NCBI RefSeq assembly: GCF_013205025.1 | Contig: NZ_JABMLE010000004.1 | Location: forward strand, 494,946 to 558,945 | DNA from: Rathayibacter sp. VKM Ac-2857 | Lineage (GTDB): Bacteria > Actinomycetota > Actinomycetes > Actinomycetales > Microbacteriaceae | Direction: 5' to 3' | DNA: 64,000 nucleotides | Shown here: positions 19,299 through 60,641 of the stretch, piece by piece | Layout: each line of letters begins with the position of its first letter | Position numbering within the stretch: the stretch's first letter is position 1 | Position numbers and translations under genes: made by a program | Notes under the pieces: generated by a model | The model's database searches: none | What the model saw: the letters and a program-made list of their open reading frames with translations, nothing else | What the model was told of the DNA's origin: nothing

Positions 19299-19337
19299 GT
19301 GAGCACCCGATCATTGGCGACGGACGTGCGAGCGTGA
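19299..19337 (+). CDS. 12-codon leader ORF coupled to the LysR gene
   Basis: A GTG five bases after the strong ribosome site GAGGAGG opens a 12-codon frame (VSTRSLATDVRA) whose TGA at 19335-19337 overlaps the GTG start of the LysR gene (GTGA). The LysR start itself has no ribosome site, so the leader probably serves to bring ribosomes to it. Both starts begin GTGAGCACC, 35 bp apart, so the arrangement may come from a small insertion or duplication in an ancestral start region. Confidence 0.4.
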   Translation: MSTRSLATDVRA

Positions 19338-29360: not shown

Positions 29361-29580
29361 TTGCTGATCGAGTAGCCCTCGGAGAGGGCGTATCGAGATC
29401 CACCGTCGTCGGTACGTGGGTCTCGATACGCGCTGCGCGCTACTCGACCAGCATGGGGCGCGCTGCGCGCTACTCGACCAGCATGGGGCGCGCTGCGCGC
29501 TACTCGACCAGCATGGGGCGCGTTGCGCTCCTTCCCGTGCCTGGGGCGCGCGCCGCGCTACTCGACCAGCAGGGGGTCGC
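29361..29580. repeat. dispersed repeat family, locus A, with three exact 30-bp tandem copies
   Basis: One element TTGCTGATCGAGTAG...GTATCGAGATC (29361-29400) is followed by inverted copies of the same element. From 29431 to 29520 a 30-bp unit containing CTACTCGACCAGCAT is repeated three times exactly, with a degenerate fourth copy to about 29580. The same element family occurs at 53142-53420 and 60235-60445. The last copy provides the final codons (LLVE) and stop of the MFS gene at 29558. Confidence 0.85.
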
Positions 29581-33030: not shown

Positions 33031-34275
33031 ATGGCTGCCGAGCGGTTCACGGGATTGGCGGCGGTCCTCGCCACGATCCGCTCCGAGCCCGCCCTGACGC
33101 AGGGCGAGCTCACCGATCGGGTCGGCCTCGGCCGCAGCGTGGTGGCCGAGCGGGTCACCGAGCTCGAGGAGGCGCAGCTGCTCGTCACCGGCGGGCTCGC
33201 GCCCTCGACCGGCGGGCGGGCGCCGCGGCGCCTGCAGCTGAACCCGCACGCCGGCTTCGTGATCGGCATCGATGTGACGGCGTACGACCTCTTCGTCGCG
33301 GCGGCCGACCTGACGGGCAGCATCCTCGGCTCCCGCCACGAGACCATCGACGTTGCCGACGGCCCGGAGGCGGTCCTCACCCGGGTGCGGGCGCTGGCCA
33401 ACGAGCTGCTCCAGCAGCGCGACTGGGCGGGCGAGCTGCTGGCGGTCGCCGCCGGAATGGCCGGTCCCGTCGCCTTCGACACCGGCACGACCGTGGGCGT
33501 CCCGATGCTGCCCGGGTGGGAGGACCACCCGGTCCGCGCGGTGCTCGAGGACGAGTGGGACGTCCCGGTCTGGGTCGACAGCCGGGTGAACCTCCTGGCC
33601 CTGGCCGAGACCCGGTCCAATCCCGCCGCCAGGACCGCGAAGAACGCGATCTACTTCGAGTTCGGCGTCGGCTGCGCCGCGTCATTGATCGTCGACGGGC
33701 AGCTCTACCGAGGGGCCCACGGGCTCGCCGGGGCGATCGGCCACACGGCGGTCGCCGAGGCGAGCCATGTGATCTGCCGGTGCGGCCGCGTCGGCTGCCT
33801 CGAGGCGATCACCAGCGGCTGGGCCATCGCCCGCGACGGCCGCCTGCTCGCCGAGAGCGGGCGCAGTCCGATGCTCGCCCGGGCCCTCGCCGCGAACGGC
33901 GAGGTGCGCCCGATCGACGTCACCGCCGCGGCGGAGGGGGGCGACCCGGCCGCCGTCGAGCTCCTCGAGCGGACCTCCGCCCTGCTCGGCAGCAGCATGG
34001 CGACCGTCGTCGCCTTCTTCGCCCCTCAGCTGCTCATCATCGGCGGGGGGATCGCGCGCGCGGGCGATCTCGCCCTGGCGCCGCTGCGTCGCGCGCTGGA
34101 GGCGCGGATCCTGCCGGCGGCGGCGGCGGACCTCCTCGTCGAGCTCCCCGTCCTCGACGAGAACTCCGGCGGCGTCACCGGCGCGATCCAGCTCGCGCTC
34201 GAGGAGCTCTTCACCCGGGACCAGCTCCCCCGCCTCCTGAGCTCTGTGTCGGCGCGGTCGGAGCTGTCCGCCTGA
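33031..34275 (+). CDS. ROK family transcriptional repressor
   Basis: A 414-residue ROK protein with an N-terminal winged helix-turn-helix (ALTQGELTDRVGLGRSVVAERVTELEEAQLL) and a sugar-kinase-like C-terminal domain. The zinc motif CRCGRVGCLEAI is intact, next to IGHTAVAEASHV. The phosphate-binding region (FVIGIDVTAYDLFVAAADL) has lost the usual DxGxT kinase signature, so it senses a sugar rather than phosphorylating it. Flanked by GH3 (divergent) and an ABC importer (downstream, same strand), it likely represses both. Confidence 0.9.
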   Translation: MAAERFTGLAAVLATIRSEPALTQGELTDRVGLGRSVVAERVTELEEAQLLVTGGLAPSTGGRAPRRLQLNPHAGFVIGIDVTAYDLFVAAADLTGSILGSRHETIDVADGPEAVLTRVRALANELLQQRDWAGELLAVAAGMAGPVAFDTGTTVGVPMLPGWEDHPVRAVLEDEWDVPVWVDSRVNLLALAETRSNPAARTAKNAIYFEFGVGCAASLIVDGQLYRGAHGLAGAIGHTAVAEASHVICRCGRVGCLEAITSGWAIARDGRLLAESGRSPMLARALAANGEVRPIDVTAAAEGGDPAAVELLERTSALLGSSMATVVAFFAPQLLIIGGGIARAGDLALAPLRRALEARILPAAAADLLVELPVLDENSGGVTGAIQLALEELFTRDQLPRLLSSVSARSELSA

Positions 34276-34474: not shown

Positions 34475-35998
34475 ATGCGCAAGCCCATCGCCGTCGCGAC
34501 GATCGCGATCGCCGCCCTGGCACTGTCCGCCTGCTCCGCCGACGCGGGCGGCGGGAACGGCTCCGGCTCGACCGCCGCGCTCCGGCTGTCCACCCTCACC
34601 TCCGTGGAGTCCTTCGCTCCCGGCGCCTTCGGGACCGGTCCGGTGACGATCGCCCTCGAGCCTGTCTACGACTCGCTCTTCCGCAACGACGACGAGGGCG
34701 AGCCCGGCGCGCACATCGCGACCGAGTGGAGCTACGACGACACGAACACGGTCCTCAGCCTCACCCTTCGCGACGACGTGACCTTCACCGACGGGACCGC
34801 CCTCGACGCGGACGCCGTGAAGAAGAACCTCGACTCCGCTCGGGCCCAGTCCGGAGAGTCCGGCGGCCAGCTCCGCTTCCTCTCCTCCGTCGACGTCGTC
34901 GACGCCACGCACCTCACCATCACCCTGACCGCGCCGGACCCGTCGCTGCTGAGCAACCTCGGCGGCACCGCCGGCATGCTCGCCAGCCCGGCGGTCCTCG
35001 ACACCCCCGGGCTGGCCACCGTGCCGGTCGGGTCGGGCCCCTACGAGTACGACGAGGCCCAGAGCCAGGCGGGGACGACCTACGTCTACGACCGCAACGA
35101 GGACTACTGGGACAAGGACGCCTACCCCTACGACTCCGTCACGGTGACCGTCTACAACGACGCGACCTCGCTGATCAACTCCCTCCGCTCCGGTCAGCTC
35201 GACTCCGGCGCCGTCGACGCGAAGGAGGTCGCCGGACTCGAGTCCGCGGGCCTGAAGACCACCTCCGCGCCGGCCTACACGACGAGCGGCCTCTTCCTCT
35301 TCGACCGCGCCGGGACCCTGGTCCCCGCGCTCGGGGACGTCCGGGTGCGCCAGGCCATCAACTACGCGTTCGACCGCTCGGCCTTCGCCGACCAGGTCTT
35401 CGGCGGAGAGGCCACGGCGACGGACCAGATGTTCAGCGCCGACAGCGCCGCGTACGACCCCGCCCTCGAGGACGCCTACCCCTACGACGTCGACAAGGCG
35501 AAGGCGCTCCTCGCCGAGGCCGGCTACGCGGACGGCTTCGACCTCCCGATGCCCGACGTCTCGGTCGTCTTCCCGACGCAGCAGGCGGCCGTCACCGAGG
35601 CGCTGACCGCCATCGGCATCCGCCCCCAGTACCAGCCCGTCAACGGCGCCACCTTCATCTCGGACCTGCTCTCGGCCAAGTACCCCGCCGCGATCTTCAA
35701 CCTGAACAGCTTCCGCCCGTGGGACGTCGCGCAGCTCTCCATGACCTCGCAGTCCGTCTGGAACACCTTCAAGACCGACGACGCCACCGTGAACGACCTG
35801 ATCATGACCGCTCAGACGCAGACTGGCGACGAGCAGGTCGCGACCTTCCAGAAGCTCAACTCCTACATCGTCGAGCAGGCCTGGTACGCCCCCTACGCCC
35901 AGCAGAACAACGTGTACGCGACCTCGTCGAGCCTCTCGATCACGCCGCAGAGGTACCTGACCTCCATCCCCCTCTGGAACTACGCCCCGGCGTCCTGA
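34475..35998 (+). CDS. ABC transporter substrate-binding lipoprotein, family 5 (peptide/oligosaccharide type)
   Basis: A 507-residue lipoprotein with lipobox ALSAC (Cys20) and the SBP_bac_5 fold: LEPVYDSLFRND near the N-terminus, LTLRDDVTFTDGTALDADAVKKNLD and PVGSGPYEY. Family 5 proteins bind peptides, nickel or, in actinobacteria, plant oligosaccharides; the surrounding glycosidase genes favour a glycoside ligand. ATG 34475 follows GAGGAG by four bases and begins directly with the signal MRKPIAVATIAI; ATG 34460 is less likely. It heads an operon with two permease domains and two ATPase domains. Confidence 0.88.
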   Translation: MRKPIAVATIAIAALALSACSADAGGGNGSGSTAALRLSTLTSVESFAPGAFGTGPVTIALEPVYDSLFRNDDEGEPGAHIATEWSYDDTNTVLSLTLRDDVTFTDGTALDADAVKKNLDSARAQSGESGGQLRFLSSVDVVDATHLTITLTAPDPSLLSNLGGTAGMLASPAVLDTPGLATVPVGSGPYEYDEAQSQAGTTYVYDRNEDYWDKDAYPYDSVTVTVYNDATSLINSLRSGQLDSGAVDAKEVAGLESAGLKTTSAPAYTTSGLFLFDRAGTLVPALGDVRVRQAINYAFDRSAFADQVFGGEATATDQMFSADSAAYDPALEDAYPYDVDKAKALLAEAGYADGFDLPMPDVSVVFPTQQAAVTEALTAIGIRPQYQPVNGATFISDLLSAKYPAAIFNLNSFRPWDVAQLSMTSQSVWNTFKTDDATVNDLIMTAQTQTGDEQVATFQKLNSYIVEQAWYAPYAQQNNVYATSSSLSITPQRYLTSIPLWNYAPAS

Positions 35999-36003
35999 CG
36001 GAC

Positions 36004-36031
36004 GGGCCGGCGCCCTCGCGGGCGCCGGCCC
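36004..36031 (+). terminator. GC-rich hairpin between binding-protein and permease genes
   Basis: A perfect 12-bp stem GGGCCGGCGCCC/GGGCGCCGGCCC with a four-base TCGC loop lies in the 67-bp gap. Inside an importer operon such a hairpin commonly stabilises the upstream mRNA or partly terminates, giving more binding protein than permease. Confidence 0.7.
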
Positions 36032-36065
36032 CCTCCCCCTTCCGTTCCGACCCTGGAGCCGTCCC

Positions 36066-37007
36066 ATGCTGATGTTCCTGCTGCGCCGCGTCGGCGCCGG
36101 ACTCGTCCTGCTCTTCGTGATCGCCTCGGCGACCTTCTTCCTCCTGAACCTCGCCGGTCAGGACCCCGCCCGCCAGGTCCTCGGACCCGTCGCGACGGCC
36201 GCCCAGGTCGACGCGAAGCGCGCCGAGCTCGGACTCGACCAGCCGGTCCTCGCCCGCTACGGCGAGTGGCTGCTGTCGGCCCTGCGCGGAGACCTCGGCG
36301 TCTCCTGGTTCTCGAACCAGCCGGTCGCCGTCCTCCTCGGGCAGGCGCTGCCCGCGACGCTCTCGATCGTCCTCGGCTCCGTGCTCGTCACTGCCCTTAT
36401 CGGCACCCTGATCGGCGCCTCCGCCGCCGTGCGCGGCGGGATCGTCGACCGCGGCCTGCAGCTCGTCTCCACCTTCGTGCAGGCGATCCCGAACTTCCTC
36501 GTCGCGCTGATCCTCGCCTTCCTGTTCGCGGTCCAGCTGCGCGTCCTCCCGGCCACCGGGTTCACCTCGTTCACGAACAGTCCCTCGGGCTGGGCCGCCT
36601 CGATCGTGCTCCCCGTGGTCGCCCTCGCCGTCGGCTCCATCGCCGCCGTCGCCCTCCAGGTCCGGGGCTCGATGATCGACGTCCTCCGACTCGACTACAT
36701 CCGCACCCTCCGGGGACGGGGCCTGCCCTCCGGCAGCATCCTCTTCCGCCACGCTCTGCGGAACGCCGCTCCCCCCTCGCTCACGACCCTCTCGCTGATG
36801 TTCATCGTGTCGATCTCCGGCTCGGTCGTCGTCGAGAAGGTCTTCAACATCCCCGGCATCGGGACAGCCGCGAACATCGCGGCCGGCCGTGGCGACCTGC
36901 CGATCGTGCTCGGAGTCGTGGTCGTGACCGTCGTCCTCGTCGTCCTCGTCAATCTCCTCGTCGATCTGGCGCAGGGCTGGCTCAACCCGAAGGTGCGTGT
37001 CTCATGA
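36066..37007 (+). CDS. ABC transporter permease, DppB/OppB family
   Basis: A 313-residue permease with six predicted helices. The N-terminus MLMFLLRRVGAGLVLLFVIASATFFLLNLAG and the coupling motif LDYIRTLRGRGLPSGSILFRHALRNA (EAA loop) are typical of the DppB branch, and KVFNIPGIG precedes the last helices. With the next gene's permease domain it makes the translocation pore. It ends overlapping the next start (ATGA). Confidence 0.92.
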   Translation: MLMFLLRRVGAGLVLLFVIASATFFLLNLAGQDPARQVLGPVATAAQVDAKRAELGLDQPVLARYGEWLLSALRGDLGVSWFSNQPVAVLLGQALPATLSIVLGSVLVTALIGTLIGASAAVRGGIVDRGLQLVSTFVQAIPNFLVALILAFLFAVQLRVLPATGFTSFTNSPSGWAASIVLPVVALAVGSIAAVALQVRGSMIDVLRLDYIRTLRGRGLPSGSILFRHALRNAAPPSLTTLSLMFIVSISGSVVVEKVFNIPGIGTAANIAAGRGDLPIVLGVVVVTVVLVVLVNLLVDLAQGWLNPKVRVS

Positions 37008-38839
37008 CCGAAGGCCTCGTCACGACCGGACCGGTCCGGCAGCGCCGCGCACCGCGGCCCGTCCGCCGCGGATTCCTCCCCCGCCTGCTGCGCGATCCCG
37101 GAGCCGTCGTCTCCGTCCTCTTCCTCCTCGCCGTCATCGTCCTCGGCATCTGCGCGCCGCTGCTCACGTCGTACGACCCGGTCGAGTCGCGCCTCGCGGA
37201 CGTCCTCGCCCCGCCCTTCACCGCGGCTCACCCGCTCGGCGCCGACGGCACCGGACGCGACATCCTCGCCGGCCTGCTCTACGGCGCGCGGACCAGCATC
37301 CTCTGCGGCCTGATCGTGGTCGGCGTCGCCCTCGCCATCGGCGTGCCGACCGGCCTGGCCGCCGGCTACTACCGCGGCTGGATCGACGGCGTCACCTCCT
37401 GGATCGCCGGAGCCCTGCTCTCCCTACCCGCGATCATCGTGCTCCTGGTCGTCCTCGCCCGCGTCGGCCGGAGCACCTTCCTCGCCCTCGCCGTCTTCGG
37501 GGTCCTCATCGCCCCCGCGGTCTACCAGCTGGTCCGCACCTCCGTCCGCGGGGTCCGCGAGGAGCTGTACGTCGACGCCGCGAAGGTCTCGGGGCTGCGC
37601 GACTCCCGGATCCTCCGCCGCCACATCCTCCCGGTCGTCGTGAAGCCGACCATCGTCCAGGCGGCGCTGCTGGCGAGCGCGGGCATCGGCATCGAGGCCG
37701 GCATCGCCTTCCTCGGGCTCGGCTCCAGCGACCGGGCGAGCTGGGGGCTGATGCTCAACGACGCCTCGCAGAACGTCTACAACGCACCGATCCTGCTCCT
37801 GTGGCCCAGCGCTGCGCTGGTGCTGACGGTCATGGCGTTCTCGATCCTCGGCAACGGCCTGCGCGACGCGCTGTCCGACGTCGGCACGGTCCGCGCCAAG
37901 CGCTCGCGCTCGGCCGCGGCACTCGTCCCGCCGACCGCGGCGATCCGGACCTACGCCCCGGTCACCGTGCCCACCGCCATCGGTGCGAGCGACTCCCTGC
38001 TGGAGCTCTCCGAACTGCGGGTCGCCTACCCCCGCGCCGAGGGCGGCGAGTCCGAGGTCGTCCGCGGCGTCTCCCTGACCCTGAAGCGCGGCGAGATCCT
38101 CGGCCTGGTCGGCGAGTCCGGATCGGGGAAGTCGCAGACCGCCTTCTCCATCCTCGGCCTGCTCCCCCGCCAGGCGCGGATGACGGCGGACCGGATGACC
38201 TTCGACGGCCTCGATCTGCTCTCGATGTCGCCTCAGGCCCGGAACAGCATCCGCGGGAAGCGCATCGGGTACATCCCGCAGGAGCCGATGAGCAACCTCG
38301 ACCCGTCGTTCCGCCTCGGGTTCCAGCTGACCGAGCCGATGCGGCACCACCTCGGCCTCTCGAGCAGCGCCGCGCGCACCTCCGCCCTGGAGCTGCTCGA
38401 CCGGGTCGGCATCCGCGATCCCGAGCGCGTCTTCCACTCGTACCCGCACGAGATCTCGGGAGGCATGGCGCAGCGCGTCCTCATCGCCGGCGCCGTCTCC
38501 TGCAACCCCGATCTGCTCATCGCCGACGAGCCCACCACCGCGCTCGACGTCACCGTGCAGGCCGACGTCCTCGACCTGCTGCGCAGCCTCCAGGCCGAGC
38601 GCGGGATGGCCGTCCTCCTCGTCACCCACAACTTCGGCGTCGTCGCCGACCTGTGCGACAAGGTCGCCGTGATGCAGGCCGGCGAGATCATCGAGGCCGC
38701 GACGGCCGACACCCTCTTCTCGGCTCCCCGGCACGACTACACCAAGACGCTGCTCGCCGCGATGCTCGAGGACGCCCCGCTGCGGACCCCGATCGGCGCG
38801 ACGACCCGCGCAACCGGAACGGACGGAACCCCGGCATGA
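37004..38839 (+). CDS. fused ABC permease and ATPase (DppC-DppD)
   Basis: A 611-residue fusion. Residues about 1-295 are a DppC-type permease (PHPLGADGTGRDILAGLLYGARTSI-like motif at about 74, EAA loop YVDAAKVSGLRDSRILRRHILP). After a linker of about 40 residues, 330-611 are a DppD-type ATPase: Walker A GESGSGKSQ, signature ISGGMAQR, Walker B LLIADEPTTALD, and the C-terminal HDYTKTLLAAM element of oligopeptide ATPases. Fusion of permease with ATPase is unusual for this family, where they are normally separate. No stop or frameshift lies between the halves. Confidence 0.92.
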   Translation: MTEGLVTTGPVRQRRAPRPVRRGFLPRLLRDPGAVVSVLFLLAVIVLGICAPLLTSYDPVESRLADVLAPPFTAAHPLGADGTGRDILAGLLYGARTSILCGLIVVGVALAIGVPTGLAAGYYRGWIDGVTSWIAGALLSLPAIIVLLVVLARVGRSTFLALAVFGVLIAPAVYQLVRTSVRGVREELYVDAAKVSGLRDSRILRRHILPVVVKPTIVQAALLASAGIGIEAGIAFLGLGSSDRASWGLMLNDASQNVYNAPILLLWPSAALVLTVMAFSILGNGLRDALSDVGTVRAKRSRSAAALVPPTAAIRTYAPVTVPTAIGASDSLLELSELRVAYPRAEGGESEVVRGVSLTLKRGEILGLVGESGSGKSQTAFSILGLLPRQARMTADRMTFDGLDLLSMSPQARNSIRGKRIGYIPQEPMSNLDPSFRLGFQLTEPMRHHLGLSSSAARTSALELLDRVGIRDPERVFHSYPHEISGGMAQRVLIAGAVSCNPDLLIADEPTTALDVTVQADVLDLLRSLQAERGMAVLLVTHNFGVVADLCDKVAVMQAGEIIEAATADTLFSAPRHDYTKTLLAAMLEDAPLRTPIGATTRATGTDGTPA

Positions 38840-39729
38840 CCACGCAGAATCCCGCGCCGGGCGCCACCGGCACTCCCGTCCTCGAGGTGAAGGACCTCGT
38901 CGTCGAGTACCCCGGCCGCCTGGGCCGCCGCTCCGCCTTCCGCGCCCTGCACGGGATCGACATGACGATCGCCCCGGGTGAGACCGTCGGCCTCGTCGGC
39001 GAGTCGGGATCGGGCAAGAGCACGCTCGGCCGTGCGGTCCTCGGGCTCGCGCCGATCACCGAGGGCAGCGTCCGGTTCGACGGGAAGGACATCACGAGGA
39101 TCGGCCGGAACGCGCGTCGGGGTCTCAGCCGGGACCTCCAGGTGGTGTTCCAGGACCCGTACACGTCGCTGAACCCCGCGATGACGGTCAGCGACATCCT
39201 CACCGAGCCGCTCCTCGTCTCCGGCTCCACCAGGAAGGACGCCGGGACGCGCGTCACAGCACTGCTCGACCAGGTGCACCTGCCCGCCGACGCGGCCGGC
39301 CGCTACCCGCGGGAGTTCTCCGGCGGTCAGCGCCAGCGCATCGCCATCGCCCGGGCCCTCTGCCTCGACCCCAAGCTCATCGTCTGCGACGAGCCCGTCA
39401 GCGCGCTCGACCTCTCGACGCAGGCGCGGGTCCTGGACCTCTTCATCGAGATCCAGGAGCGCACGGGCGTCGCCTACCTCTTCGTCACGCACGACCTCGC
39501 GGTGGTGCGCAGCATCAGCCACCGCGTGGCCGTGATGCGCCGGGGCGAGATCGTCGAGTCCGGCGACGTCGACCAGGTCACCTCCCGTCCGGTCCACCCC
39601 TACACGCAGGCGCTGCTGCTGGCGGCGCCGGTGCCGGACCCCGCCCGGCAGGCCGAGCGCCGCTCGGAGCGCCGCCGCTTCCTCGACGAGCAGAAGGCCG
39701 CGGCCGGGGACGTCCCGCTCACGGCCTGA
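38836..39729 (+). CDS. ABC transporter ATPase, DppF/OppF family
   Basis: A 297-residue ATPase: Walker A GESGSGKSTLGRA, Q-loop VVFQDPYTSLNPAMTV, signature FSGGQRQRIAIARAL, Walker B LIVCDEPVSALD, switch FVTHDLAVV, and the oligopeptide-type tail RPVHPYTQALLLAAPVPDP. It would pair with the ATPase half of the preceding fusion. It begins inside the stop of that gene (ATGA). The next gene follows after a hairpin. Confidence 0.92.
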   Translation: MTTQNPAPGATGTPVLEVKDLVVEYPGRLGRRSAFRALHGIDMTIAPGETVGLVGESGSGKSTLGRAVLGLAPITEGSVRFDGKDITRIGRNARRGLSRDLQVVFQDPYTSLNPAMTVSDILTEPLLVSGSTRKDAGTRVTALLDQVHLPADAAGRYPREFSGGQRQRIAIARALCLDPKLIVCDEPVSALDLSTQARVLDLFIEIQERTGVAYLFVTHDLAVVRSISHRVAVMRRGEIVESGDVDQVTSRPVHPYTQALLLAAPVPDPARQAERRSERRRFLDEQKAAAGDVPLTA

Positions 39730-39798: not shown

Positions 39799-40203
39799 AT
39801 GCTCGAGAGAGAGCTCATCCAGACCCGGGGCGTCCGGAACGTCGAGGAGGACGGTGCCGTCACCGGCTTCCAGTTCACGCTGCGGATGCCCAACTACCGG
39901 GGCGTCTGGGGCAGCCTGATCGACGGTGTCGACGTCACCGTCGGCGACCTGTCCTGGGACCGCGAGGTCCCGCGCTGGACCCTCCAGGGCCGCGAGTTCA
40001 GCATCCAGGAGCTCCGCGCGACCGACGCCGAGGTCCGCTGGCAGCTGGACGAGGTCGCGACCATCACGGTCCCCCACCCCGGCGGACTCCCCGTCGGCGT
40101 GCACGACCTCGCCGTGGACATCGCGATCCACGCCCCCTACATTCCGGCGGAGTTCCAGCCGTCGGTGTTCCACTCCGAGCGGAAGGTCACGATCGTCGCA
40201 TGA
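39799..40203 (+). CDS. C-glycoside deglycosidase small (beta) subunit-like protein
   Basis: A 134-residue beta-rich protein resembling the small subunit of C-glycoside deglycosidases (CarB/DgpB type, DUF6379-like), including RMPNYRGVWGSLIDGVDVTVGD and FSIQELRATDAEVRWQLDEVATITVP. In the known enzymes this subunit forms a complex with a TIM-barrel partner that removes a 3-oxo sugar from an aglycone. The partner gene follows at once, overlapping by four bases (ATGA), which supports the call. AGGAGAAG precedes the ATG. Recognition is from family features seen by eye, not from a search. Confidence 0.75.
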   Translation: MLERELIQTRGVRNVEEDGAVTGFQFTLRMPNYRGVWGSLIDGVDVTVGDLSWDREVPRWTLQGREFSIQELRATDAEVRWQLDEVATITVPHPGGLPVGVHDLAVDIAIHAPYIPAEFQPSVFHSERKVTIVA

Positions 40204-41090
40204 GCGCTGCACTGAAGTACGGGGTGTCCCTGTACAGCTACACCGGTGACATGAACACCGTCCTCACCCTCGAGGACGCCTTCGCCGAGATCGCCGACCT
40301 CGGCGCGACCGGCATCGAGATCCTCGGCGAGGGCAACATCAGCGGGTACCCGGCTCCCGGGACCGCGTGGATCGACGAGTGGCAGCGCCTCCTGGAGACG
40401 TACCGCCTCGAGCCGACGAACTACGGCTCGTGGATCGACTCGCGGCTCTGGCGCGACCGCGACCTCTCGGCCGAGCAGGGCGCACGGATGCTCGCCGGCG
40501 ACCTCCGGCTCGCGTCGACGCTCGGCTTCACCACGATCCGGCCCAAGATCGGCGTGATCGCGATGGACCTCACGCCGCACCCGATCTGGGAAAAGGTCGT
40601 CGAGCGCAACCTCGACCTCGCCCACGAGCTCGGGCTCATCATCTGCCCGGAGATCCACGCGCCGACCCCGATCAAGCACCCGGTGGTCGACGAGTACCTC
40701 GCGTTCATCGAGCGCACCGGCTCGCCGAACTTCCGGCTCATGCTCGACACCGGCATCTTCCAGCGGACCGTCACCACCGCGAAGCACGACGGTCTGAGCG
40801 AGGAGGCCGTGGACGAGGGCTGGCGGAAGCCCCTCGCCGTCCCGATGTCGGATCTCGCGGAGGTGCTGCCCTACACCGCGTTCATCCAGACCAAGTTCTT
40901 CGACATCGACGAGGACCTCGTCGACCAGCAGATCCCGTGGGAGGAGATCATGCAGACCCTGATCGACAACGAGTGGTCGGGCTACCTCTCCAGCGAGTAC
41001 GAGGGCGACCGCCTGCCCTACCGGTCCATCGAGCAGGTCCGCCGCCAGCACGCCCTGCTGCACTCGATCGAGGATCGGCTCACCGCATGA
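40200..41090 (+). CDS. C-glycoside deglycosidase large (alpha) subunit-like TIM-barrel protein
   Basis: A 296-residue sugar phosphate isomerase/epimerase-like barrel resembling CarC/DgpC. Metal-ligand candidates are Glu151 (ICPEIHAP), Asp183 (LMLDTGIF) and Glu266 (LSSEYEGD); the third position of this fold falls in FIQTKFFDID. With the small subunit it is expected to split 3-oxo-C-glycosides (or O-glycosides) by beta-elimination, freeing the aglycone. The opening YGVSLYSYTGDMNTVLTLEDAF matches the family better than xylose-isomerase-like epimerases. It overlaps the GH43 gene by ATGA. Confidence 0.78.
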   Translation: MSAALKYGVSLYSYTGDMNTVLTLEDAFAEIADLGATGIEILGEGNISGYPAPGTAWIDEWQRLLETYRLEPTNYGSWIDSRLWRDRDLSAEQGARMLAGDLRLASTLGFTTIRPKIGVIAMDLTPHPIWEKVVERNLDLAHELGLIICPEIHAPTPIKHPVVDEYLAFIERTGSPNFRLMLDTGIFQRTVTTAKHDGLSEEAVDEGWRKPLAVPMSDLAEVLPYTAFIQTKFFDIDEDLVDQQIPWEEIMQTLIDNEWSGYLSSEYEGDRLPYRSIEQVRRQHALLHSIEDRLTA

Positions 41091-42577
41091 CCGCGTCAGA
41101 CCAGCGTCCCGTCGTCCCCGGCTTCCACCCCGACCCGTCGGTCTGCGTCGTGGACGGCGTCGCGTATCTGGCGAACTCGACCTTCGAGTACGCGCCCGGC
41201 GTGCCGATCCACGCGTCGACCGACTTCAGGACGTGGACGCTGGTCGGGCACGCCCTCCACCGGCCGGACCAGCTCCCCCTCGCCGGGACCGGCCCCTCCG
41301 GCGGGATCTTCGCGCCGACCCTGCGCCACCACGACGGACGCTTCTGGATGATCACGACCAACGTCGCCGACGAGCAGGGGCAGGTGCTCGTCACCGCAGA
41401 GGACGCCGCCGGCCCCTGGTCCGAGGCGATCCGCATCCCGGGTATCGACGGCATCGACCCCGACATCGCCTGGGGTGAGGACGGAACCTGCTACGTCACC
41501 TACGCGGGTCGCACCGGGATCGCGCAGGTCGAGATCGACCCCGCCACGGGAGAGGTCCTCACCGAGCCGCGGCTGCTCTGGTCGGGCACCGGCGGGAAGT
41601 TCCCGGAGGGGCCGCACCTGCTCGAGCGCGACGGGCACTGGTACCTCCTCATCGCCGAGGGCGGCACTGAGCGCGGGCACTCCGTCTCAATCGCCCGCGG
41701 CCCGTCGCCCTCCGGGCCCTTCACCGGGAATCCGGCGAACCCGATCCTCACCAAGCGCGGCACCTCCTCCTCCGTGCAGAGCACCGGGCACTCGGACCTG
41801 GTCGAGATCGCACCCGGCGTGTGGGCGCTCGTCTACCTCGCCGTCCGACCTCGCGGGAGCAGTCCGGAGTGGCACGTCCTCGGCCGCGAGACGTTCGCCT
41901 CAGCGGTGGAGTGGATTGACGGCTGGCCCGTCGTCGGAGCGCCGATCGAGCCGCCCGAGCGGCCGAGCCGGGAGACCCTGGTGCGGGGTGAGGCGCTGCC
42001 GCCGACCTGGGTGGGCGACGAGGTGTTCCCCACCGACGTGGTCGAGGTGTCCGAGCACGGATGGACCCTCACCGGCTCCGGGAGTCAGGAGACGTTCGTC
42101 GGACGCCGCCAGGACCGCCTCTTCTTCTCCGCCCGCGCGGCTCTCAGCACGACCGGCGAGGCGGCCCTCTCCGTGCGGATCGACCGCCGGCACCGGTTCC
42201 GGCTCGAGCTCGAGGGCGATCGCCTGAGCACCGTGCTCGTGGTCGGCGGGCACCGCGTCGTCCTCGACGAGCGGGCAGCGGTCACCGGCGCCGAGCTGCA
42301 GATCCGCACCTTCCCCGTCGAAGGAGGCTTCTTCGAGGCACGGGGCCCGGACCACCTGGTCGGCGGTGTCGTCGTGGACGGCGTCTTCACCGAGACGGGG
42401 CGCGCCGACGGCCGCTACGTCTCCACGGAGGTGGCGGGCGGCATGACCGGGCGGATCATCGGCATCGAGGTCGGCGTCGGAAGGGCCGAGCTGACCGCCT
42501 TCACGTACGTCGGATCCGATGAGCCGCTCGCCGAGCCGTTCCCCGTCGAGCAGCTCGAGGAGACGACCGTCAGTTGA
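41087..42577 (+). CDS. glycoside hydrolase family 43 protein
   Basis: A 496-residue cytoplasmic GH43 enzyme: a five-bladed propeller (about 1-310) with catalytic base Asp16 (GFHPDPS), a second Asp near 124-126 (GIDPDIAW) and acid Glu174 (KFPEGPHL), then a C-terminal beta-sandwich of about 180 residues as in GH43 beta-xylosidases/arabinofuranosidases. It lacks a signal peptide, so it trims imported xylosides or arabinosides. It is the last gene of the importer/deglycosidase operon and overlaps the convergent ROK gene by eight bases. Confidence 0.88.
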   Translation: MTASDQRPVVPGFHPDPSVCVVDGVAYLANSTFEYAPGVPIHASTDFRTWTLVGHALHRPDQLPLAGTGPSGGIFAPTLRHHDGRFWMITTNVADEQGQVLVTAEDAAGPWSEAIRIPGIDGIDPDIAWGEDGTCYVTYAGRTGIAQVEIDPATGEVLTEPRLLWSGTGGKFPEGPHLLERDGHWYLLIAEGGTERGHSVSIARGPSPSGPFTGNPANPILTKRGTSSSVQSTGHSDLVEIAPGVWALVYLAVRPRGSSPEWHVLGRETFASAVEWIDGWPVVGAPIEPPERPSRETLVRGEALPPTWVGDEVFPTDVVEVSEHGWTLTGSGSQETFVGRRQDRLFFSARAALSTTGEAALSVRIDRRHRFRLELEGDRLSTVLVVGGHRVVLDERAAVTGAELQIRTFPVEGGFFEARGPDHLVGGVVVDGVFTETGRADGRYVSTEVAGGMTGRIIGIEVGVGRAELTAFTYVGSDEPLAEPFPVEQLEETTVS

Positions 42578-43910
42578 ACGCCCCGGCGTAGCGCTGCAGC
42601 GCCGTCGCGTGGCCGAACGGCACGCCCTCGCCGACCCACTGGGTCAGGCCGGCGGGGGCGAGCACGTTCTCGATCGCCAGCAGCGCCGCCCCGGTGACGC
42701 CCTCCAGCTGATCCAGGCTCGCCGCGCGGATGACGAGGCGCTCGGCGACCAGATCGGTGCAGCCGGACCGGACCGCGTCGGTCACGAGATCGACGAAGTA
42801 CTCCCCGCCCCGCAGGACGCCGCCGCCGATCGCGACGACCCCCGGGTTCAGCACGTTGACGAGATTCGCGACCACGCCGGCCACGATGCGGCCCGCGCTC
42901 GTCAGCAGCTCCATCGAGAGCGGATCGCCCTCGAGAGCGGCTCGCCCGAGGTCCCCGAGAGCGAGAGCGTCGCCCCGGTCGACGACCTCCGCGAGGAGCG
43001 GGCTCTCCCGGGCGCGATCCTGTGCGGCGTGGAGGAGCGACCAGCCGCTCGCGACCGCCTCGAGGCAGCCGATCCGCCCGCAGCGGCAGACCGCGGCGGG
43101 GTCGTCGGACACCTTGATGTGGCCGATGTCGCCCGCGCCGCCGCGCTCGCCGCGGATGAGGCGCCCGCGGATGATCATCCCGGCGCCGACGCCCGTGCCC
43201 ACCTTCACGAACAGCATGTCGCGACCGTCCCGGTGCGCCCCCGCGGCCCACTCGCCCAGGGCCATCAGGTTGACGTCGTTGTCGACCCAGACCGGGGCGT
43301 CGTAGTGGTCGCGGAACCACGCGCGCACGTTGACGTCGTGCCAGCCGGGCATGATCGGCGGCGCGACGAGGCGGCCGGACCCGTACTCGACCGGGCCGGG
43401 CACTCCGATCGCGATCCCCCACGGGCGCGACACCCCGGCGCTCGCGGCGACCCGCTCGAACTGCAGGCGCACGCGCTCCAGAGTCTCCTGCGGGCCGTTC
43501 GCGACACTCCAGTCCTCGTGCCCGGTCGCGAGCAGCGTGCCGGAGAGATCGGAGACGGCCACCGTGAACTCGGACGCGCCGATCACGGCCGCGAAGACGT
43601 GCCCGGCGTCGGCGGCGAAGTGCAGCGTCCGGGCCTGGCGGCCGCCCTCCGACGGGGCCAGCCCTCCCTCGCCCAGCAGTCCCAGCGCGAGAGCCTGCTC
43701 GACGCGCTGGGTCACGATCTTGCGACTCAGGCCGCTCGCCGCGACGAGCTCCGGCCGCGTCGCCGCCCGGCCGGTCCGGACGAGCTCGATGATCGCCGCG
43801 AGCGGAGCCGCCTCGAGGGCCGGAGCGACCGAACCGCCGGGGACGTCGAAGCCGCCGAGAAGGGAGGCGGCGTGCTCCGCGGGCGTCGTCGTCGTCGTGT
43901 CCACGGTCAC
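42570..43910 (-). CDS. ROK family transcriptional repressor
   Basis: A 446-residue ROK regulator, second in the region. The winged helix-turn-helix is AATRPELVAASGLSRKIVTQRVEQALALGLL; the sugar-binding domain includes PVWVDNDVNLMALGEW, VKVGTGVGAGMIIRG, GDIGHIKVSDD and the zinc motif CRCGRIGCLEAV. Compared with the protein at 33031 it keeps the GTG-GAG glucokinase-like motif. GTG 43910 follows TAGGAGG. It is divergent from the GMC oxidoreductase gene and probably controls 44099-48288. Confidence 0.9.
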   Translation of the reverse strand: MTVDTTTTTPAEHAASLLGGFDVPGGSVAPALEAAPLAAIIELVRTGRAATRPELVAASGLSRKIVTQRVEQALALGLLGEGGLAPSEGGRQARTLHFAADAGHVFAAVIGASEFTVAVSDLSGTLLATGHEDWSVANGPQETLERVRLQFERVAASAGVSRPWGIAIGVPGPVEYGSGRLVAPPIMPGWHDVNVRAWFRDHYDAPVWVDNDVNLMALGEWAAGAHRDGRDMLFVKVGTGVGAGMIIRGRLIRGERGGAGDIGHIKVSDDPAAVCRCGRIGCLEAVASGWSLLHAAQDRARESPLLAEVVDRGDALALGDLGRAALEGDPLSMELLTSAGRIVAGVVANLVNVLNPGVVAIGGGVLRGGEYFVDLVTDAVRSGCTDLVAERLVIRAASLDQLEGVTGAALLAIENVLAPAGLTQWVGEGVPFGHATALQRYAGAFN

Positions 43911-43933
43911 CGCGTCCTCCTAGGGTCCCTCCG

Positions 43934-44040
43934 AGCATAAGTGCTGCGCCGGCGGAGGGCCGCGAGAGGGCTGCCAGGACACCGGACGAGGTCGGGAACC
44001 GTGGTCGGCTCTTGCGGTTAGGTGCGTGAAGCACATAAGT
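43934..44040. promoter_or_regulatory. divergent promoter region between ROK and GMC genes
   Basis: On the plus strand TTGCGG (44012-44017), a 17-bp spacer and ATAAGT (44035-44040) form a promoter for the GMC gene; the spacer contains GTGC-gtgaa-GCAC (44022-44034). Near the ROK start, AGCATAAGTGCT (43934-43945) is a near-palindrome over the ROK -10 region. Both places share GCA..TAAGT, suggesting two copies of one ROK operator. Confidence 0.45.
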
Positions 44041-44098
44041 TGGTCGACGACCGACGGGGCTCGACCGGCTCGTCGGCACGGCTCCCGAAAGGCTCGAC

Positions 44099-45634
44099 AT
44101 GACGGACAGGACGAACGACTCCCGCGGCTACCCGGACAGGGTGGACGTCGCGATCATCGGAAGCGGGCCGGCGGGCGCCGCCTACGCCCGCATCCTGAGC
44201 GAGCGCTCCCCCGGGGCCTCGATCGCCCTGTTCGAGGTCGGACCGACGATCAGCGATCCGCCCGGGACGCACGTGAAGAACATCGCCGATCTGCACGAGC
44301 GCGCGCGGGCGCAGCGCCGGTCGGAGGGGCCGCGCCCCCAGGGCGAGACGTCGACCGACACCCTGGACGACTACGCGACCGACGCCGCGCGCATGCAGCG
44401 GGCCGGCACCTTCCTCCTCGCCGACGGCTGGCAGCAGCCCGGCGAGGACGGCCTCCCCGCCGCCGCGATGTCGAGCAACGTCGGCGGCATGGCCGCGCAC
44501 TGGACCGGCGCCTGCCCGCGACCCGGCGCCAGCGAGCGGATCGCGTTCCTCCCCGATCTCGACGAGCTCTTGACCGAGGCCGAGCGACTCCTCTCCGTCA
44601 CCGCCGACGCCCTCGGCGACGCACCTCTCGCCGGCGACGTGCGCGCCCGGCTCTCCGCCGCCCTCGACGCCGGCCGCTCGCCCGACCGCCGGGTGCAGCC
44701 GATGCCGCTCGCCGTGCGCCGCACCGAGGACGGGTCGCTGATCTGGTCCGGCTCGGACGTGGTCTTCGGCGACGCCACCCGCGAGAACGAGCGCTTCACG
44801 CTCTTCGACGAGTCCCTCGTGACCCGTGTCCTCACCGAGGACGGAGCGGCGTCCGGCGTCACCGTGCGCGACCGGCGCAGCGGAGCGGAGCAGGACGTCG
44901 CCGCCCGCTTCGTGGTCGTAGCGGCGGACAGCCTCCGCACGCCCCAGGTGCTACACGCCTCCGGCGTCCGCCCCGAGGCGCTCGGCCGCTACCTCAACGA
45001 CCAGCCGCAGATGGTGCACGGCGCGATCCTCACCGACGTGCCCGAGGTCCCTACCGCCTCCGGCGCGGACACCGCGATCACCGCGCAGAGCGGAGTGTCC
45101 TGGATCCCCTTCACCGACGAGTTCCCGTTCCACGGCCAGGTCATGCAGCTCGACGCCTCGCCCGTTCCGCTGGACTTCGACACGATCCCCGGCTCGATCG
45201 TCGGGCTCGGCTGGTTCTGCGCCAAGGATCTCCAGGCCTCCGACCGGGTCGCGTTCTCGGACGACGAGACCGACGAGTACGGGATGCCCGCGCTCCGGAT
45301 CCACTACACGCTCACCGGCAAGGACCACGAGACACTGGCGCGGGCGCGCGAGTCGATCCTCGCCGCGGCTCTGGCCGTCGGCCGCCCCCTCGGCGACGAG
45401 CCGCGCCTCTTCCCGGCCGGCGCCTCGCTGCACTACCAGGGCAGCGTCCGCATGGGCGAGACCGACGACGGCACGTCCGTCTGCGATCCGACGGGCCAGG
45501 TCTGGGGACACTCCGGTCTCTTCGTCGCCGGCAACGGCGTCATCCCGACCGCCACCGCCTGCAATCCCACCCTCACCGGTGTCGCCCTCGCCGTGCGCGG
45601 AGCCCGCCGCATCGCCGAGGAGCTGAACCGATGA
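44099..45634 (+). CDS. GMC-type FAD oxidoreductase, candidate glycoside 3-oxidase
   Basis: A 511-residue glucose-methanol-choline oxidoreductase. The FAD motif IIGSGPAGAAYARIL starts at residue 19, SSNVGGMAAHWTGA is the second flavin contact, and the C-terminal active-site pair is His445 (SLHYQGSVRMG) and Asn489 (CNPTLTG). There is no signal peptide. Size and class fit C-glycoside 3-oxidases (CarA) and pyranose-2/3-oxidases. Beside the deglycosidase-like genes at 39799-41090, oxidation of the sugar C3 hydroxyl is the likely reaction; the electron acceptor (O2 or other) is not visible. Confidence 0.82.
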   Translation: MTDRTNDSRGYPDRVDVAIIGSGPAGAAYARILSERSPGASIALFEVGPTISDPPGTHVKNIADLHERARAQRRSEGPRPQGETSTDTLDDYATDAARMQRAGTFLLADGWQQPGEDGLPAAAMSSNVGGMAAHWTGACPRPGASERIAFLPDLDELLTEAERLLSVTADALGDAPLAGDVRARLSAALDAGRSPDRRVQPMPLAVRRTEDGSLIWSGSDVVFGDATRENERFTLFDESLVTRVLTEDGAASGVTVRDRRSGAEQDVAARFVVVAADSLRTPQVLHASGVRPEALGRYLNDQPQMVHGAILTDVPEVPTASGADTAITAQSGVSWIPFTDEFPFHGQVMQLDASPVPLDFDTIPGSIVGLGWFCAKDLQASDRVAFSDDETDEYGMPALRIHYTLTGKDHETLARARESILAAALAVGRPLGDEPRLFPAGASLHYQGSVRMGETDDGTSVCDPTGQVWGHSGLFVAGNGVIPTATACNPTLTGVALAVRGARRIAEELNR

Positions 45635-47292
45635 CCCCCCTCACCTCAGGAGCCCCCGTGTCCGACCTCCCCCGCCTCGACCGTTCGGCGCGTCCGACGC
45701 AGCTGATCGTCGACGGCGCTCCGTTCCTCTGCCTCGGCGGCGAGCTCCACAACTCCAGCCCGTCCGACCCGCGGCACATGGCTCCGATCTGGTCGACGAT
45801 CGGAGCGTCCGGCGTGAGCTCGATCGTCGCCCCGGTCGGCTGGGACCAGGTGGAGCCCATGGAGGGCGAGTTCGACTTCGGCGTCGTCGACGCGCTGCTC
45901 GAGGGTGCGCGCTCCGCGGGCGTCCGACTCGTCCTGATCTGGTTCGGCGCCTTCAAGAACGCCCTCTCGACCTACGCCCCGACCTGGGTTCGCGCCGACA
46001 CGACGCGGTTCGAACGAGCCGACCGCGGCCCGTCGCCGCTGCGCGCCCCGCTCACCTACGACGGATCCATGCCCCGACCCGGCCTCTCGGTGTTCTCCGA
46101 CGAGCTCCGTCGTGCGGACCAGGTCGCCTACACAGCCCTGATGGAGCACCTCGCCCGCGTGGACGAGGTCCACACCGTGATCATGACGCAGGTGGAGAAC
46201 GAGGTGGGCCTGCTTGGAGCGAGCCGCGACCTCTCCGACCCCGCTCGGCGCGCCTGGCTCGCACCTGTCCCCGCCGCGCTCGTCGAGGCCGTCTCGAACG
46301 AGCCCGCCGGCTTCCACGAGGACGTCGTCGCGCTCTTCGAGCGCTCCCGCTCCGACGGAGCCTCCTGGCAGGAGCGCTTCGGCGACGACGACCCCGTGGC
46401 GGACGAGGTCTTCATGTCCTGGGGCTACGGCAGCTACCTGGGCACCCTCGCCGCGGCAGGCAAGACGGTCAAGGCGCTGCCCGCCTACGCGAACGCGTGG
46501 CTCGGGCCGCAGCCGGGGCAGGACGCCCCCGGCCAGTACCCCAGCGGCGGCCCGACCGCGCGGATGCGAGGAGTGTGGAAGGTCGCGGGACCGGCGCTCG
46601 ACTTCGTCTCCCCCGACATCTACGTCCAGCACAGCGAGCCGGTGATGCGCGAGTACTCGGCCCCCGACAACCCGCTCTTCATCCCCGAGGCGCGCGTCCT
46701 CACCGGCGACGCCTTCCGTGCGATCGGCGGATTCGACGCCCTCGGCTATCACGTGTTCGGCGTCGACGACGTCCGCGAGGGCAGCCAGCTGTACGGCGCC
46801 TTCCGGCAGTTGCTCGCCCTCGCCCCACAGATCCTCGAGGCCCAGCGTGCGGGCCGCATCATCGGCTTCGCCCTCGATGCCGGGACGGAGTCGCTCACGA
46901 CGGAGATCGAGGGGATGACCGTCGTGGCGCGCAGCGCGCCGAGCATGCTGGCGAACCTGCTCCTCGACGTCGGAGTCCGGCTCCCCGAGCCGGCGCCGCT
47001 CCCCGACGAGAACCTGCCCACGGCGCACGCCCCCTCCCCCGCGGACGGGCGCGCCTTCGGGATCGTCCTGCAGACCGGGCCGCTCGAGTACCTCGCCCTC
47101 GGCCAGCAGACCATGATCGACTTCAGCCGCGACGGCGTGCAGGTCGAGATCGACGGCCTCCGCGAGCTGCGGCTCCAGAACGGCGAGTGGGTCGAGGGAC
47201 GGATCCTCAACGGCGACGAGCGGCTGATGATCCTCGGCGCGCACGGCGTGACCGCGGTGCGGGTCAGGCTCCTCGAAACACCGGCGGCCTGA
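45631..47292 (+). CDS. beta-galactosidase-like glycoside hydrolase (GH35/GH42 clan, DUF5597-type C-terminus)
   Basis: A 553-residue cytoplasmic clan-A glycosidase. The N-terminal barrel has FLCLGGELHNSS, APVGWDQVEPMEGEFDF and the acid/base Glu189 in MTQVENEVG; the nucleophile is probably the Glu of PLFIPEARV. The C-terminal part (from about 440) is a small beta domain like that found with DUF5597-containing galactosidases. The expected substrate is a beta-linked galactoside or related glycoside. It overlaps the GMC gene stop by four bases, so both proteins are made together. Confidence 0.87.
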   Translation: MTPLTSGAPVSDLPRLDRSARPTQLIVDGAPFLCLGGELHNSSPSDPRHMAPIWSTIGASGVSSIVAPVGWDQVEPMEGEFDFGVVDALLEGARSAGVRLVLIWFGAFKNALSTYAPTWVRADTTRFERADRGPSPLRAPLTYDGSMPRPGLSVFSDELRRADQVAYTALMEHLARVDEVHTVIMTQVENEVGLLGASRDLSDPARRAWLAPVPAALVEAVSNEPAGFHEDVVALFERSRSDGASWQERFGDDDPVADEVFMSWGYGSYLGTLAAAGKTVKALPAYANAWLGPQPGQDAPGQYPSGGPTARMRGVWKVAGPALDFVSPDIYVQHSEPVMREYSAPDNPLFIPEARVLTGDAFRAIGGFDALGYHVFGVDDVREGSQLYGAFRQLLALAPQILEAQRAGRIIGFALDAGTESLTTEIEGMTVVARSAPSMLANLLLDVGVRLPEPAPLPDENLPTAHAPSPADGRAFGIVLQTGPLEYLALGQQTMIDFSRDGVQVEIDGLRELRLQNGEWVEGRILNGDERLMILGAHGVTAVRVRLLETPAA

Positions 47293-47319
47293 GCCGGTGC
47301 CGGGATCCACGAGGAAGCG

Positions 47320-48288
47320 ATGACGGCCGTCGTCCGCTGGGGCATCGCCGGGACGGGGCCGATCTCGCAGCAGATCGCGCGAGACTTCGGCCTCGTCGAC
47401 GGCGCGGAGCTCGTCGCCGTCGCTTCGCGTACCGCGGCGAATGCTGCGGGATTCGGCGACGAGTTTGCGATCCCGCTCCGGTTCTCCGACTACTCGGCGA
47501 TGCTCGACGCGGACCTCGACGCCGTCTACCTCGGCACTCCCCACGTCACCCACTTCGCGCTGGCGAAGGAGGCCCTGCAGCGTGGACGCCACGTTCTCTG
47601 CGAGAAGCCCCTCGGACTCGACGCGACCGAGGTCCGCGAGCTGTCCGCGATCGCGCGCGGCGCGGGCGTCTTCCTCATGGAGGCCATGTGGATGCGGTTC
47701 ACCCCGCTGATGGCGCTCGTGCGCGAGATCGTCGACTCCGGTGAGATCGGCGAGGTGCGCGCCGTGCAGGCGGCGTTCGGCGCGCCCTTCCCGCGCGACG
47801 GCTCCAGCCGCTGGCAGCGCGGCGGCAGCTCGCTTCTCGACCAGGGGATCTACCCCGTCACCCTCGCGCACCTGATGCTGGGCGCGCCGGAGAGCGTCAC
47901 CGCCACCGGCGTGATCGACCCTCTCGGCATCGACCTCAGCACCCACTTCACCCTCGAGTACGGCGGCGGGCGCTTCGCCCAGGGGGCGAGCTCGATGGTC
48001 GAGTTCCTCGCCGGCACCGCCTCCGTCTCGGGCAGAACCGGCTGGATCGGCATCGATCCCGGCTTCTGGTTCGCCTCGGGGCTCACCGTCCACGGCTACG
48101 GCCCCACCGGACCGACCGCCCGGCGCCACGAGGTCGAGCGGGAGGGCCACGGCTACGTCCCCATGCTGCGCGAGGTCACCCGCGCCATCACAGCCGGGCT
48201 CCTCGAGCATCCCCTGCACACTCTGGAGGACGCCGTCGCCGTCTTCGAGACTCTCGACGCCGTTCGACGTCGAACGATCCAGGTGTGA
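47320..48288 (+). CDS. Gfo/Idh/MocA family oxidoreductase
   Basis: A 322-residue NAD(P)-dependent dehydrogenase. The Rossmann motif GIAGTGPISQQIA starts at residue 9, the GTPHVTHF motif follows, and the EKPLGLD motif (Glu-Lys-Pro) carries the catalytic lysine; LDQGIYPVTLAHLMLG contains the usual conserved Gly-x-Tyr-x-x-x-x-x-His region. Members interconvert sugars and 3-oxo or inositol forms and act on 3-ketoglycosides, so here it may reduce the released 3-oxo sugar back to glucose. It follows the galactosidase gene by 27 bp with a GAGGAA ribosome site. Confidence 0.88.
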   Translation: MTAVVRWGIAGTGPISQQIARDFGLVDGAELVAVASRTAANAAGFGDEFAIPLRFSDYSAMLDADLDAVYLGTPHVTHFALAKEALQRGRHVLCEKPLGLDATEVRELSAIARGAGVFLMEAMWMRFTPLMALVREIVDSGEIGEVRAVQAAFGAPFPRDGSSRWQRGGSSLLDQGIYPVTLAHLMLGAPESVTATGVIDPLGIDLSTHFTLEYGGGRFAQGASSMVEFLAGTASVSGRTGWIGIDPGFWFASGLTVHGYGPTGPTARRHEVEREGHGYVPMLREVTRAITAGLLEHPLHTLEDAVAVFETLDAVRRRTIQV

Positions 48289-49114: not shown

Positions 49115-49273
49115 CGCTCGGAGAGTCAGCTGCCGCGCGGGGCGCAGTGCTTTCCCGTCCAGCCGCCCTGGGCGAGCATCTCCAGGAGAAACCGGCCGCC
49201 GACGGCGCCGTCGAGCCGCTCGTGCAGCGTGTTCTAAGCAGTGAGGGTCGAGTTGCTCTCCTCTGATCGCCAG

Positions 49274-54664: not shown

Positions 54665-54789
54665 CTCTTCCACCCCCCGACCCGTCCCTCCCCCGCCGCC
54701 GTCCGCGCGGTCGGCACCAGCCGCCTCCGCGCGGTCCCTCCGGCGCGCCCGCCGGCCCGTCCCTCCCCCTTCTCCGAAGGAGCTCCTCC

Positions 54790-56136: not shown

Positions 56137-56142
56137 GGATCG

Positions 56143-60634: not shown

Positions 60635-60641
60635 TTTCTTA

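Follow-up and report, generated by a model that had tools for sequence, protein, structure and literature searches.

A putative catabolic island in Rathayibacter joining C-glycoside deglycosidase genes to an aromatic ring-cleavage module

C-glycosides withstand ordinary glycosidases, and the published accounts of C-glycoside deglycosidases (CGDs), in the parts cited here, end at aglycone release: an oxidase acts first and a CGD then releases the aglycone (PMC8563793; PMC12724307). We analysed a stretch of 64,000 nucleotides from Rathayibacter sp. VKM Ac-2857 (contig NZ_JABMLE010000004.1, positions 494,946 to 558,945), called the window below, which encodes both a CGD and a predicted C-glycoside oxidase. 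Our analysis suggests that the locus at about 9-48 kb of the window is probably a catabolic island, taking plant C-glycosides to central metabolism via A-ring cleavage and protocatechuate. This reading is built on what we observed directly: the families of the genes, their conserved residues, the fold, and how the genes co-occur and are linked. The CGD and the oxidase each add a member to a known family, and what appears to be new is the coupling between the CGD and an aromatic module. In the open-licence literature of PubMed Central we found no report in which an A-ring cleavage module accompanies CGD genes, and one may be in print elsewhere.

The soil actinobacterial systems CarABC, AgCGD and PurABC combine a GMC C-glycoside oxidase with a CGD heterodimer, as in the window; their descriptions, in the parts cited here, cover the first two steps and hold no aglycone module. 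AgCGD2 has a lid domain (PMC8563793), unlike the short alpha subunit of the window. DfgAB (EuCGD, 7bvs) of Eubacterium cellulosolvens, which acts on C6-glucosyl flavones (PMC8563793), has a short, lid-less alpha subunit like that of the window, but it is 37-38% identical to the window protein, has a His ligand and is partnered by the oxidoreductase DfgE instead of a GMC oxidase. The CGD of Microbacterium testaceum (8qrz, 8un2) is 55-56% identical in its alpha part and has, like the window, Gln at the position of the metal His; its beta and alpha parts are fused in one chain of 435 residues, whereas they are two overlapping genes here. Mori et al. leave the remaining cluster genes as future work (PMC8563793). 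On the aglycone side, the fde genes of Herbaspirillum and the ifc genes of Variovorax encode an FAD monooxygenase and a glyoxalase-like dioxygenase, and resemble the window by gene type, but the parts of their descriptions cited here hold no CGD, and ifc employs the cupin IfcD.

The first-pass annotation took the pair of genes at 39799-41090 to be CarBC/DgpBC-type subunits, and a profile search of this piece agrees for the small subunit, giving CGDB (PF19906) above its cut-off. The beta subunit scored 129 bits against residues 2-133 of 8qrz and 70 bits against DfgB (7bvs). PF19906 had one match in the window genome and none in 14 control genomes, so its presence is not due to chance. For the alpha subunit the best solved matches, both by sequence and by predicted fold, are CGDs with 8qrz as the first, and an identity as sugar isomerase or epimerase was ruled out by these matches. 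The assignment as CGD alpha and beta is confirmed at the level of sequence, with cleavage of 3-oxo C-glycosides as the predicted activity.

A metal site in the alpha subunit had been put forward as a point to check, and it is kept except for one ligand. E151, D183, K232 and E266 correspond to the metal ligands Glu147, Asp179, Lys271 and Glu305 of AgCGD2 (whose numbering is used here), H153 and E268 to the catalytic His149 and Glu307, and all six are identical in 50/50 aligned rows. The ligand His269 is Gln230 in the window (codon 40887-40889). Gln stands at this position in 8qrz as well and in 38/38 short alpha rows of the alignment, and hence named CGDs do not all have the His. Seven related loci (L040, L046, L054, L061, L063, L082 and L084) encode both a short CGD alpha and a long one, the long type being 24-27% identical to the window protein.

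The GMC protein shares 326 of 498 aligned residues (65.5%) with 7qf8, and it scored 700 bits against 7dve. Its C-terminal motifs LHYQG (at 444) and TACNPT (at 486), whose His and Asn are presumably catalytic, are the same in 7qf8. According to the parts of the published papers cited here, 7qf8 is PsG3Ox and 7dve is MtCarA, both C-glycoside oxidases, and the PsG3Ox gene adjoins CGD genes (PMC10646112). It is hardly credible that the GMC protein acts on free sugars as a pyranose oxidase, with a sugar isomerase or epimerase encoded at 39799-41090. The Pfam label of the alpha subunit is indeed xylose isomerase-like, and the pyranose oxidase model TIGR02462 gave 205 bits; its cut-off, however, is 545 bits, for which reason we rejected this function as a first choice, and the top structural matches are to C-glycoside oxidases and CGDs, with a CGD domain in the beta subunit. 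The first-pass annotation had read the genes as a full deglycosylation route from import to re-reduction of the 3-oxo sugar, of which the CGD and C-glycoside oxidase identities are supported by sequence, and that of CGD alpha by predicted fold too, while the trimming of sugars and the re-reduction are putative. A second GMC gene (~40%) adjoins an MFS gene in many loci of the family.

The aromatic module at 22831-29262, which the first-pass annotation overlooked, was found by a coding-potential script and then family scans. It consists of a minus-strand run (22831-28010) and a divergent gene for an extradiol dioxygenase (EDO), whose best match in the PDB is 9wgj (174 bits), with 127 bits to 3lm4. 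In the 4-hydroxybenzoate/protocatechuate (pob/pca) run, PcaH (348 bits) and the PobA subfamily (510 bits) scored above their cut-offs and PcaB (299 bits) below, the other members being named by eye. In the fde and ifc pathways, as far as the cited parts go, ring A is first hydroxylated at C8 by the FAD monooxygenase and then cleaved by the glyoxalase-like dioxygenase, and the fde products feed protocatechuate and pca (PMC11069340; PMC11303751). The window has the gene types for both schemes, deglycosylation and A-ring cleavage, and the decarboxylase-like and FAH genes would suit a meta-cleavage route. IfcA is reported not to accept isoflavone glycosides (PMC11069340, in part); if the enzyme here were similarly selective, that would account for the sugar having to leave first.

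We compared the window with 22 other regions of its family, including G011, each of 20-60 kb so that all counts are lower bounds; of the two regions fetched for each of G068, G283 and G346, one entered the count. Homologues of at least 45% identity were found for GMC in 22 regions, CGD alpha in 21, LysR in 20 (55-98% identity), EDO in 19, the FAD monooxygenase and the cyclase in 17 each, FAH2 in 16 and CGD beta in 15, followed by FAH1 (9) and the amidohydrolase, PcaH and PobA (7 each). The FAD monooxygenase and the VOC-type dioxygenase, both present in the window, occur together at this level in 17 of the 22. Based on these counts the conserved unit is the oxidase, CGD, LysR, EDO, FAD monooxygenase, cyclase and FAH2. 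GH43, GH35, GH3, Gfo and ROK2 have homologues at the same threshold in 2/22 regions each, and MFS, ROK1 and the substrate-binding protein (SBP) of the importer in 1/22 each. Distant homologues are more frequent (GH43 in 11 regions, GH3 in 8, Gfo in 6 and GH35 in 4), indicating that glycosidases recur in kind and that close homologues differ by lineage. The pairing of GH43 with GH35, the earlier point of interest, was set aside for the latter reason.

The co-occurrence of the CGD and the EDO was also counted by genome. We searched 398 genomes of the window's family for CGD alpha at E<=1e-90 and EDO at E<=1e-60, and found the former in 23 and the latter in 41. EDO is present in 23/23 CGD alpha carriers versus 18/375 others (Fisher p 1.6e-26), and by genus in 13/13 versus 6/72 (p 3.7e-11), where the cut-offs were chosen after the lists were seen and the Fisher tests are uncorrected for the shared ancestry of the genomes. 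With the CGD alpha cut loosened to E<=0.001, EDO is found in 25/26 (p 8.7e-28), the three extra genomes with a weaker CGD alpha (G086, G199 and G242) having EDO in two cases and none in one. Restricting EDO to at least 78% identity gives 20/23 carriers versus 5/375 others (p 3.6e-26). The two genes lie within 40 kb of each other in 19 of the 23 carriers, and further apart in G155, G068, G283 and G346. In a second sample, 245 genomes from the family to which G404 belongs, EDO is found in 5/5 carriers versus 18/240 others (p 4.8e-6), within 20 kb of CGD alpha in G536, G552 and G645 and not in G404 and G478. Overall, the linkage between the CGD and the module is strong, and its underlying logic is not surprising.

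A genome scan gave 13 CGD loci, and EDO of at least 69% identity is present in 11 of these 13 genomes. It lies within 20 kb of CGD alpha in L002 and L005, was not seen so close in the other nine, and is ~1.9 Mb away in the L003 genome. In L005, Agromyces terreus, the genes for GMC, CGD beta, CGD alpha, EDO, FAH1, cyclase, FAD monooxygenase, amidohydrolase and FAH2 occupy 20.9 kb at 53-85% identity, with pob/pca genes further out. In the Demequina locus L012, homologues of PcaI, PcaJ and a thiolase (53-65%) are found at 14844-16183, close to the CGD.

The arrangement also extends to plasmids and to another phylum. Plasmid pDAETH-1 of Deinococcus aetherius carries in one direction an SBP, two permeases, CGD alpha (29%), CGD beta, GMC (48%), EDO (66%), a cyclase, an FAH protein (39%), two other enzymes and an FAD monooxygenase (35%); the cyclase is so named by annotation and had no match to the window cyclase at the cut used. 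Its CGD alpha scored 750 bits against 8qvc, the solved CGD of D. aerius, and its GMC 1018 bits against 8qve, which we take to be the D. aerius oxidase. The D. aerius enzymes, which reportedly convert isovitexin and isoorientin to apigenin and luteolin, resemble those of the window in having separate CGD subunits and a GMC oxidase, and the orthologous run of D. aetherius extends into EDO; they differ in a long alpha subunit, 26-31% identical to that of the window, and in the His ligand, as seen in the D. aetherius orthologue. A plasmid of Arthrobacter StoSoilB13 has the CGD, LysR and GMC genes and all six aromatic genes. In Sphingobium TomTYG65 the CGD genes are near an annotated hydratase, cyclase and hydrolase and an FAD monooxygenase at 35% identity. 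A recent plasmid origin of the window genes finds no near relative in the plasmid collection, where the closest alpha subunit is 58% identical.

Several observations weigh against the proposed island. The Gln at the metal-ligand position His269 is one, and the lack of FAH1 and the amidohydrolase in many family regions is another. G155, G283 and G346 carry only an EDO of the 65-70% type, far from CGD alpha, and neither a cyclase nor an FAD monooxygenase was seen in the 20-kb stretches around the EDO of G283 and G346, the G155 region not having been fetched. Of the 13 genomes from the genome scan, those of L011 and L013 have no EDO orthologue, and the Arthrobacter loci nearest to the window in transporter and glycosidase content have EDO away from the CGD. 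Novosphingobium ES2-1 has a CGD with no GMC or aromatic module within 14 kb, which speaks against a general rule. Finally, a strong CGD is missing from 18 of the 41 genomes with EDO, and hence the aromatic genes are not dedicated to C-glycosides.

The last point would fit two unrelated catabolic clusters that happen to be neighbours, a CGD serving the sugar of any C-glycoside and aromatic genes serving another phenolic, as would G022, which has the EDO module and pob/pca but no CGD, and the distance between CGD and EDO in the Arthrobacter carriers. We consider this quite unlikely given the EDO in every CGD carrier of the two family samples and the linkage in 19/23 and 3/5 of them, over 13 genera and another phylum. 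A wider proposal has about an even chance: that aerobic CGDs as a rule open a dedicated flavonoid mineralisation island in which oxidation at C3, C-C elimination, extradiol cleavage of ring A and the catabolism of protocatechuate are co-inherited in Actinomycetota and Deinococcota, with one CGD lineage, that of the window included, using a Gln-containing metal centre. Its odds are lowered by the three of 23 carriers with a diverged, unlinked EDO and by Novosphingobium without the module.

For the catabolic island itself we infer the substrate, the order of the steps and all reactions of the aglycone module as follows. The substrates are most likely flavone C-glucosides of the isovitexin or isoorientin kind. 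The importer would take up the glycoside, and GH3, GH35 and GH43 may strip additional O-linked sugars. The GMC oxidase would yield the 3-oxo sugar, whose C2 proton would be abstracted at the metal/His site of the CGD. Elimination of the aglycone would then give an anhydro-hexenulose, which could be turned into glucose by a hydratase and a reductase, for which the Gfo/Idh enzyme may be a candidate. The FAD monooxygenase would then hydroxylate ring A of the aglycone, the EDO would open the resulting catechol, and the cyclase and FAH proteins would trim the cleavage product. Ring B would be left as 4-hydroxybenzoate or protocatechuate and enter the adjacent pob/pca pathway.

An alternative hypothesis is that the oxidase and the CGD act mainly on O-glycosides, by 3-oxidation and then beta-elimination of the O-linked aromatic, with the flavonoid aglycone catabolised as before. 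In the parts of the reports cited here, the CGD PuCGE cleaves 3-keto-phlorizin with a kcat of 1.20 per s, the unrelated AtOGE cleaves it with a similar Mn centre (PMC10628242), and PurA oxidises daidzin, genistin and apigetrin (PMC12724307). The Gln across the whole short lineage might also mark another substrate. However, the Gln-type relative 8qrz was deposited as a C-glucosyl deglycosidase, and the 3-keto O-glycosides made by PurA are reported to decay spontaneously (PMC12724307, in part), so that a CGD dedicated to O-glycosides would be less needed. On balance this alternative seems unlikely.

Table 1. Predicted features of the window, by position
Feature	Position	Strand	Evidence
pob/pca run	9148..16998	-	genes at 9148, 10371, 11021, 11818, 13020 (PcaB-like), 14467, 15038 (PcaH), 15811 (PobA-like)
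LysR-type regulator	19334..20278	+	PF00126 + PF03466
FAH-superfamily hydrolase 2 (FAH2)	22831..23811	-	PF01557 E 7.6e-46; fumarylacetoacetase-like, 71 bits
Amidohydrolase, ACMSD-type decarboxylase-like	23808..24812	-	PF04909; 169 bits to ACMSD 2wm1/4ofc
FAD aromatic monooxygenase	24809..25951	-	PRK06847 subfamily 410 bits (above cut-off 372); PF01494
PF04199 cyclase-type protein	26017..27030	-	PF04199 E 6.5e-17; 203 bits to 5ibz (uncharacterised)
FAH-superfamily hydrolase 1 (FAH1)	27027..28010	-	PF01557 E 1.7e-58
VOC-type EDO, predicted ring cleavage	28246..29262	+	TIGR03211 catechol_2_3 249 bits (below cut-off 320); motifs LDHVTI, VNHYAF, LRIEMN
MFS transporter, DHA2-like	29558..30979	-	PF07690
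GH3 glycosidase	31084..32925	-	PF00933 + PF01915
ROK-family regulator ROK1	33031..34275	+	PF00480 E 4.2e-43
ABC importer, oligopeptide type	34475..39729	+	SBP 34475-35998, permease 36066-37007, fused OppC-OppD 37004-38839, ATPase 38836-39729
CGD beta subunit, 134 residues	39799..40203	+	CGDB PF19906 E 5.2e-36
CGD alpha subunit, short TIM barrel, 296 residues	40200..41090	+	AP_endonuc_2 E 7.3e-15; best structure matches are CGDs
GH43 glycosidase	41087..42577	+	PF04616 E 1.6e-74; motifs HPDPS, GIDPDI, PEGPHL
ROK-family regulator ROK2	42570..43910	-	PF00480 E 1.2e-51
GMC FAD oxidase, predicted C-glycoside 3-oxidase	44099..45634	+	GMC_C PF05199 E 7.7e-19, GMC_N PF00732 E 1.8e-8; 704 bits to 7qf8
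GH35-like glycosidase with DUF5597	45631..47292	+	PF18120 E 3.4e-19; NCBIfam GH35_fam 467 bits (below cut-off 500)
Gfo/Idh/MocA oxidoreductase	47320..48288	+	PF01408 + PF22725; GFO_IDH_MocA E 8.1e-24

All open reading frames called in the first-pass annotation were found at their coordinates (Table 1). Its cluster list holds for the GH43, GMC, GH35-like, Gfo/Idh/MocA and GH3 genes, the importer and the two ROK families, with GH3, the second ROK gene and the importer lying outside its span of 39799-48288. Each joint between the beta, alpha and GH43 genes is an ATGA overlap of 4 bases, and ~70 bases separate the end of the importer from the beta subunit, whose start is preceded by an AGGAG motif; the importer, beta, alpha and GH43 genes look like one transcription unit. 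The ROK2 gene is convergent with the beta-alpha-GH43 run, and the GMC, GH35 and Gfo genes come next on the plus strand. We take the GH43 motifs to represent the catalytic triad. A predicted tRNA-Arg at 45794-45891 falls inside the GH35 gene and was taken as a false positive.

The importer domains (SBP_bac_5, OppC_N and oligo_HPY) indicate the oligopeptide type and not the sugar CUT1 type, and its gene order is repeated ahead of GMC-CGD in L003, L004, L006, L007 and L008 at 59-73% identity. Its OppC and OppD domains form a single frame of 611 residues, which as a query aligns in one piece in Arthrobacter loci. The importer, GH3 and GH35 are common to the window and the Arthrobacter loci, five of which have a GH3 homologue of 61-64% identity, and ROK2 homologues (57-64%) are near GMC/CGD in L005, L009, L010, L011 and L014. 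To the right of the island, 48599-49699 holds a short-chain dehydrogenase/reductase fragment (171 residues) and a C-terminal GH1 fragment (141 residues), resembling gene remnants. The gene at 51051-53111 encodes one protein that combines domains of the ricin-type lectin, Fn3 and glucose/sorbosone dehydrogenase families, and 53615-62782 has more LacI-like, sugar-type ABC and GH42-like genes adjoining the island, named by eye.

The window genome, of the family Microbacteriaceae, is 4.6 Mb. The closest relative with a name that we found, Rathayibacter sp. VKM Ac-2856, has an alpha subunit 98% identical to that of the window. Among 15 genomes of the genus, two encode CGD alpha, and the same two encode PobA (E<=1e-80). 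G011 preserves the gene order from pca through Gfo; relative to the window it has (as L032) ~5 kb extra between MFS and GH3, including another ROK-like gene (39% identity). The distribution in the genus would follow either from a single acquisition of the block or from its loss in other genomes.

The co-occurrence of CGD and ring-cleavage genes offers a testable route from C-glycosyl flavones to central metabolism. Its FAD monooxygenase, EDO, cyclase and FAH2 are candidate enzymes for the catabolism of apigenin and luteolin, and the Gln-for-His metal site provides a ready variable for mechanism studies. The pairing of CGD and EDO would serve as a marker by which soil and plant-associated bacteria that degrade C-glycosides could be recognised.

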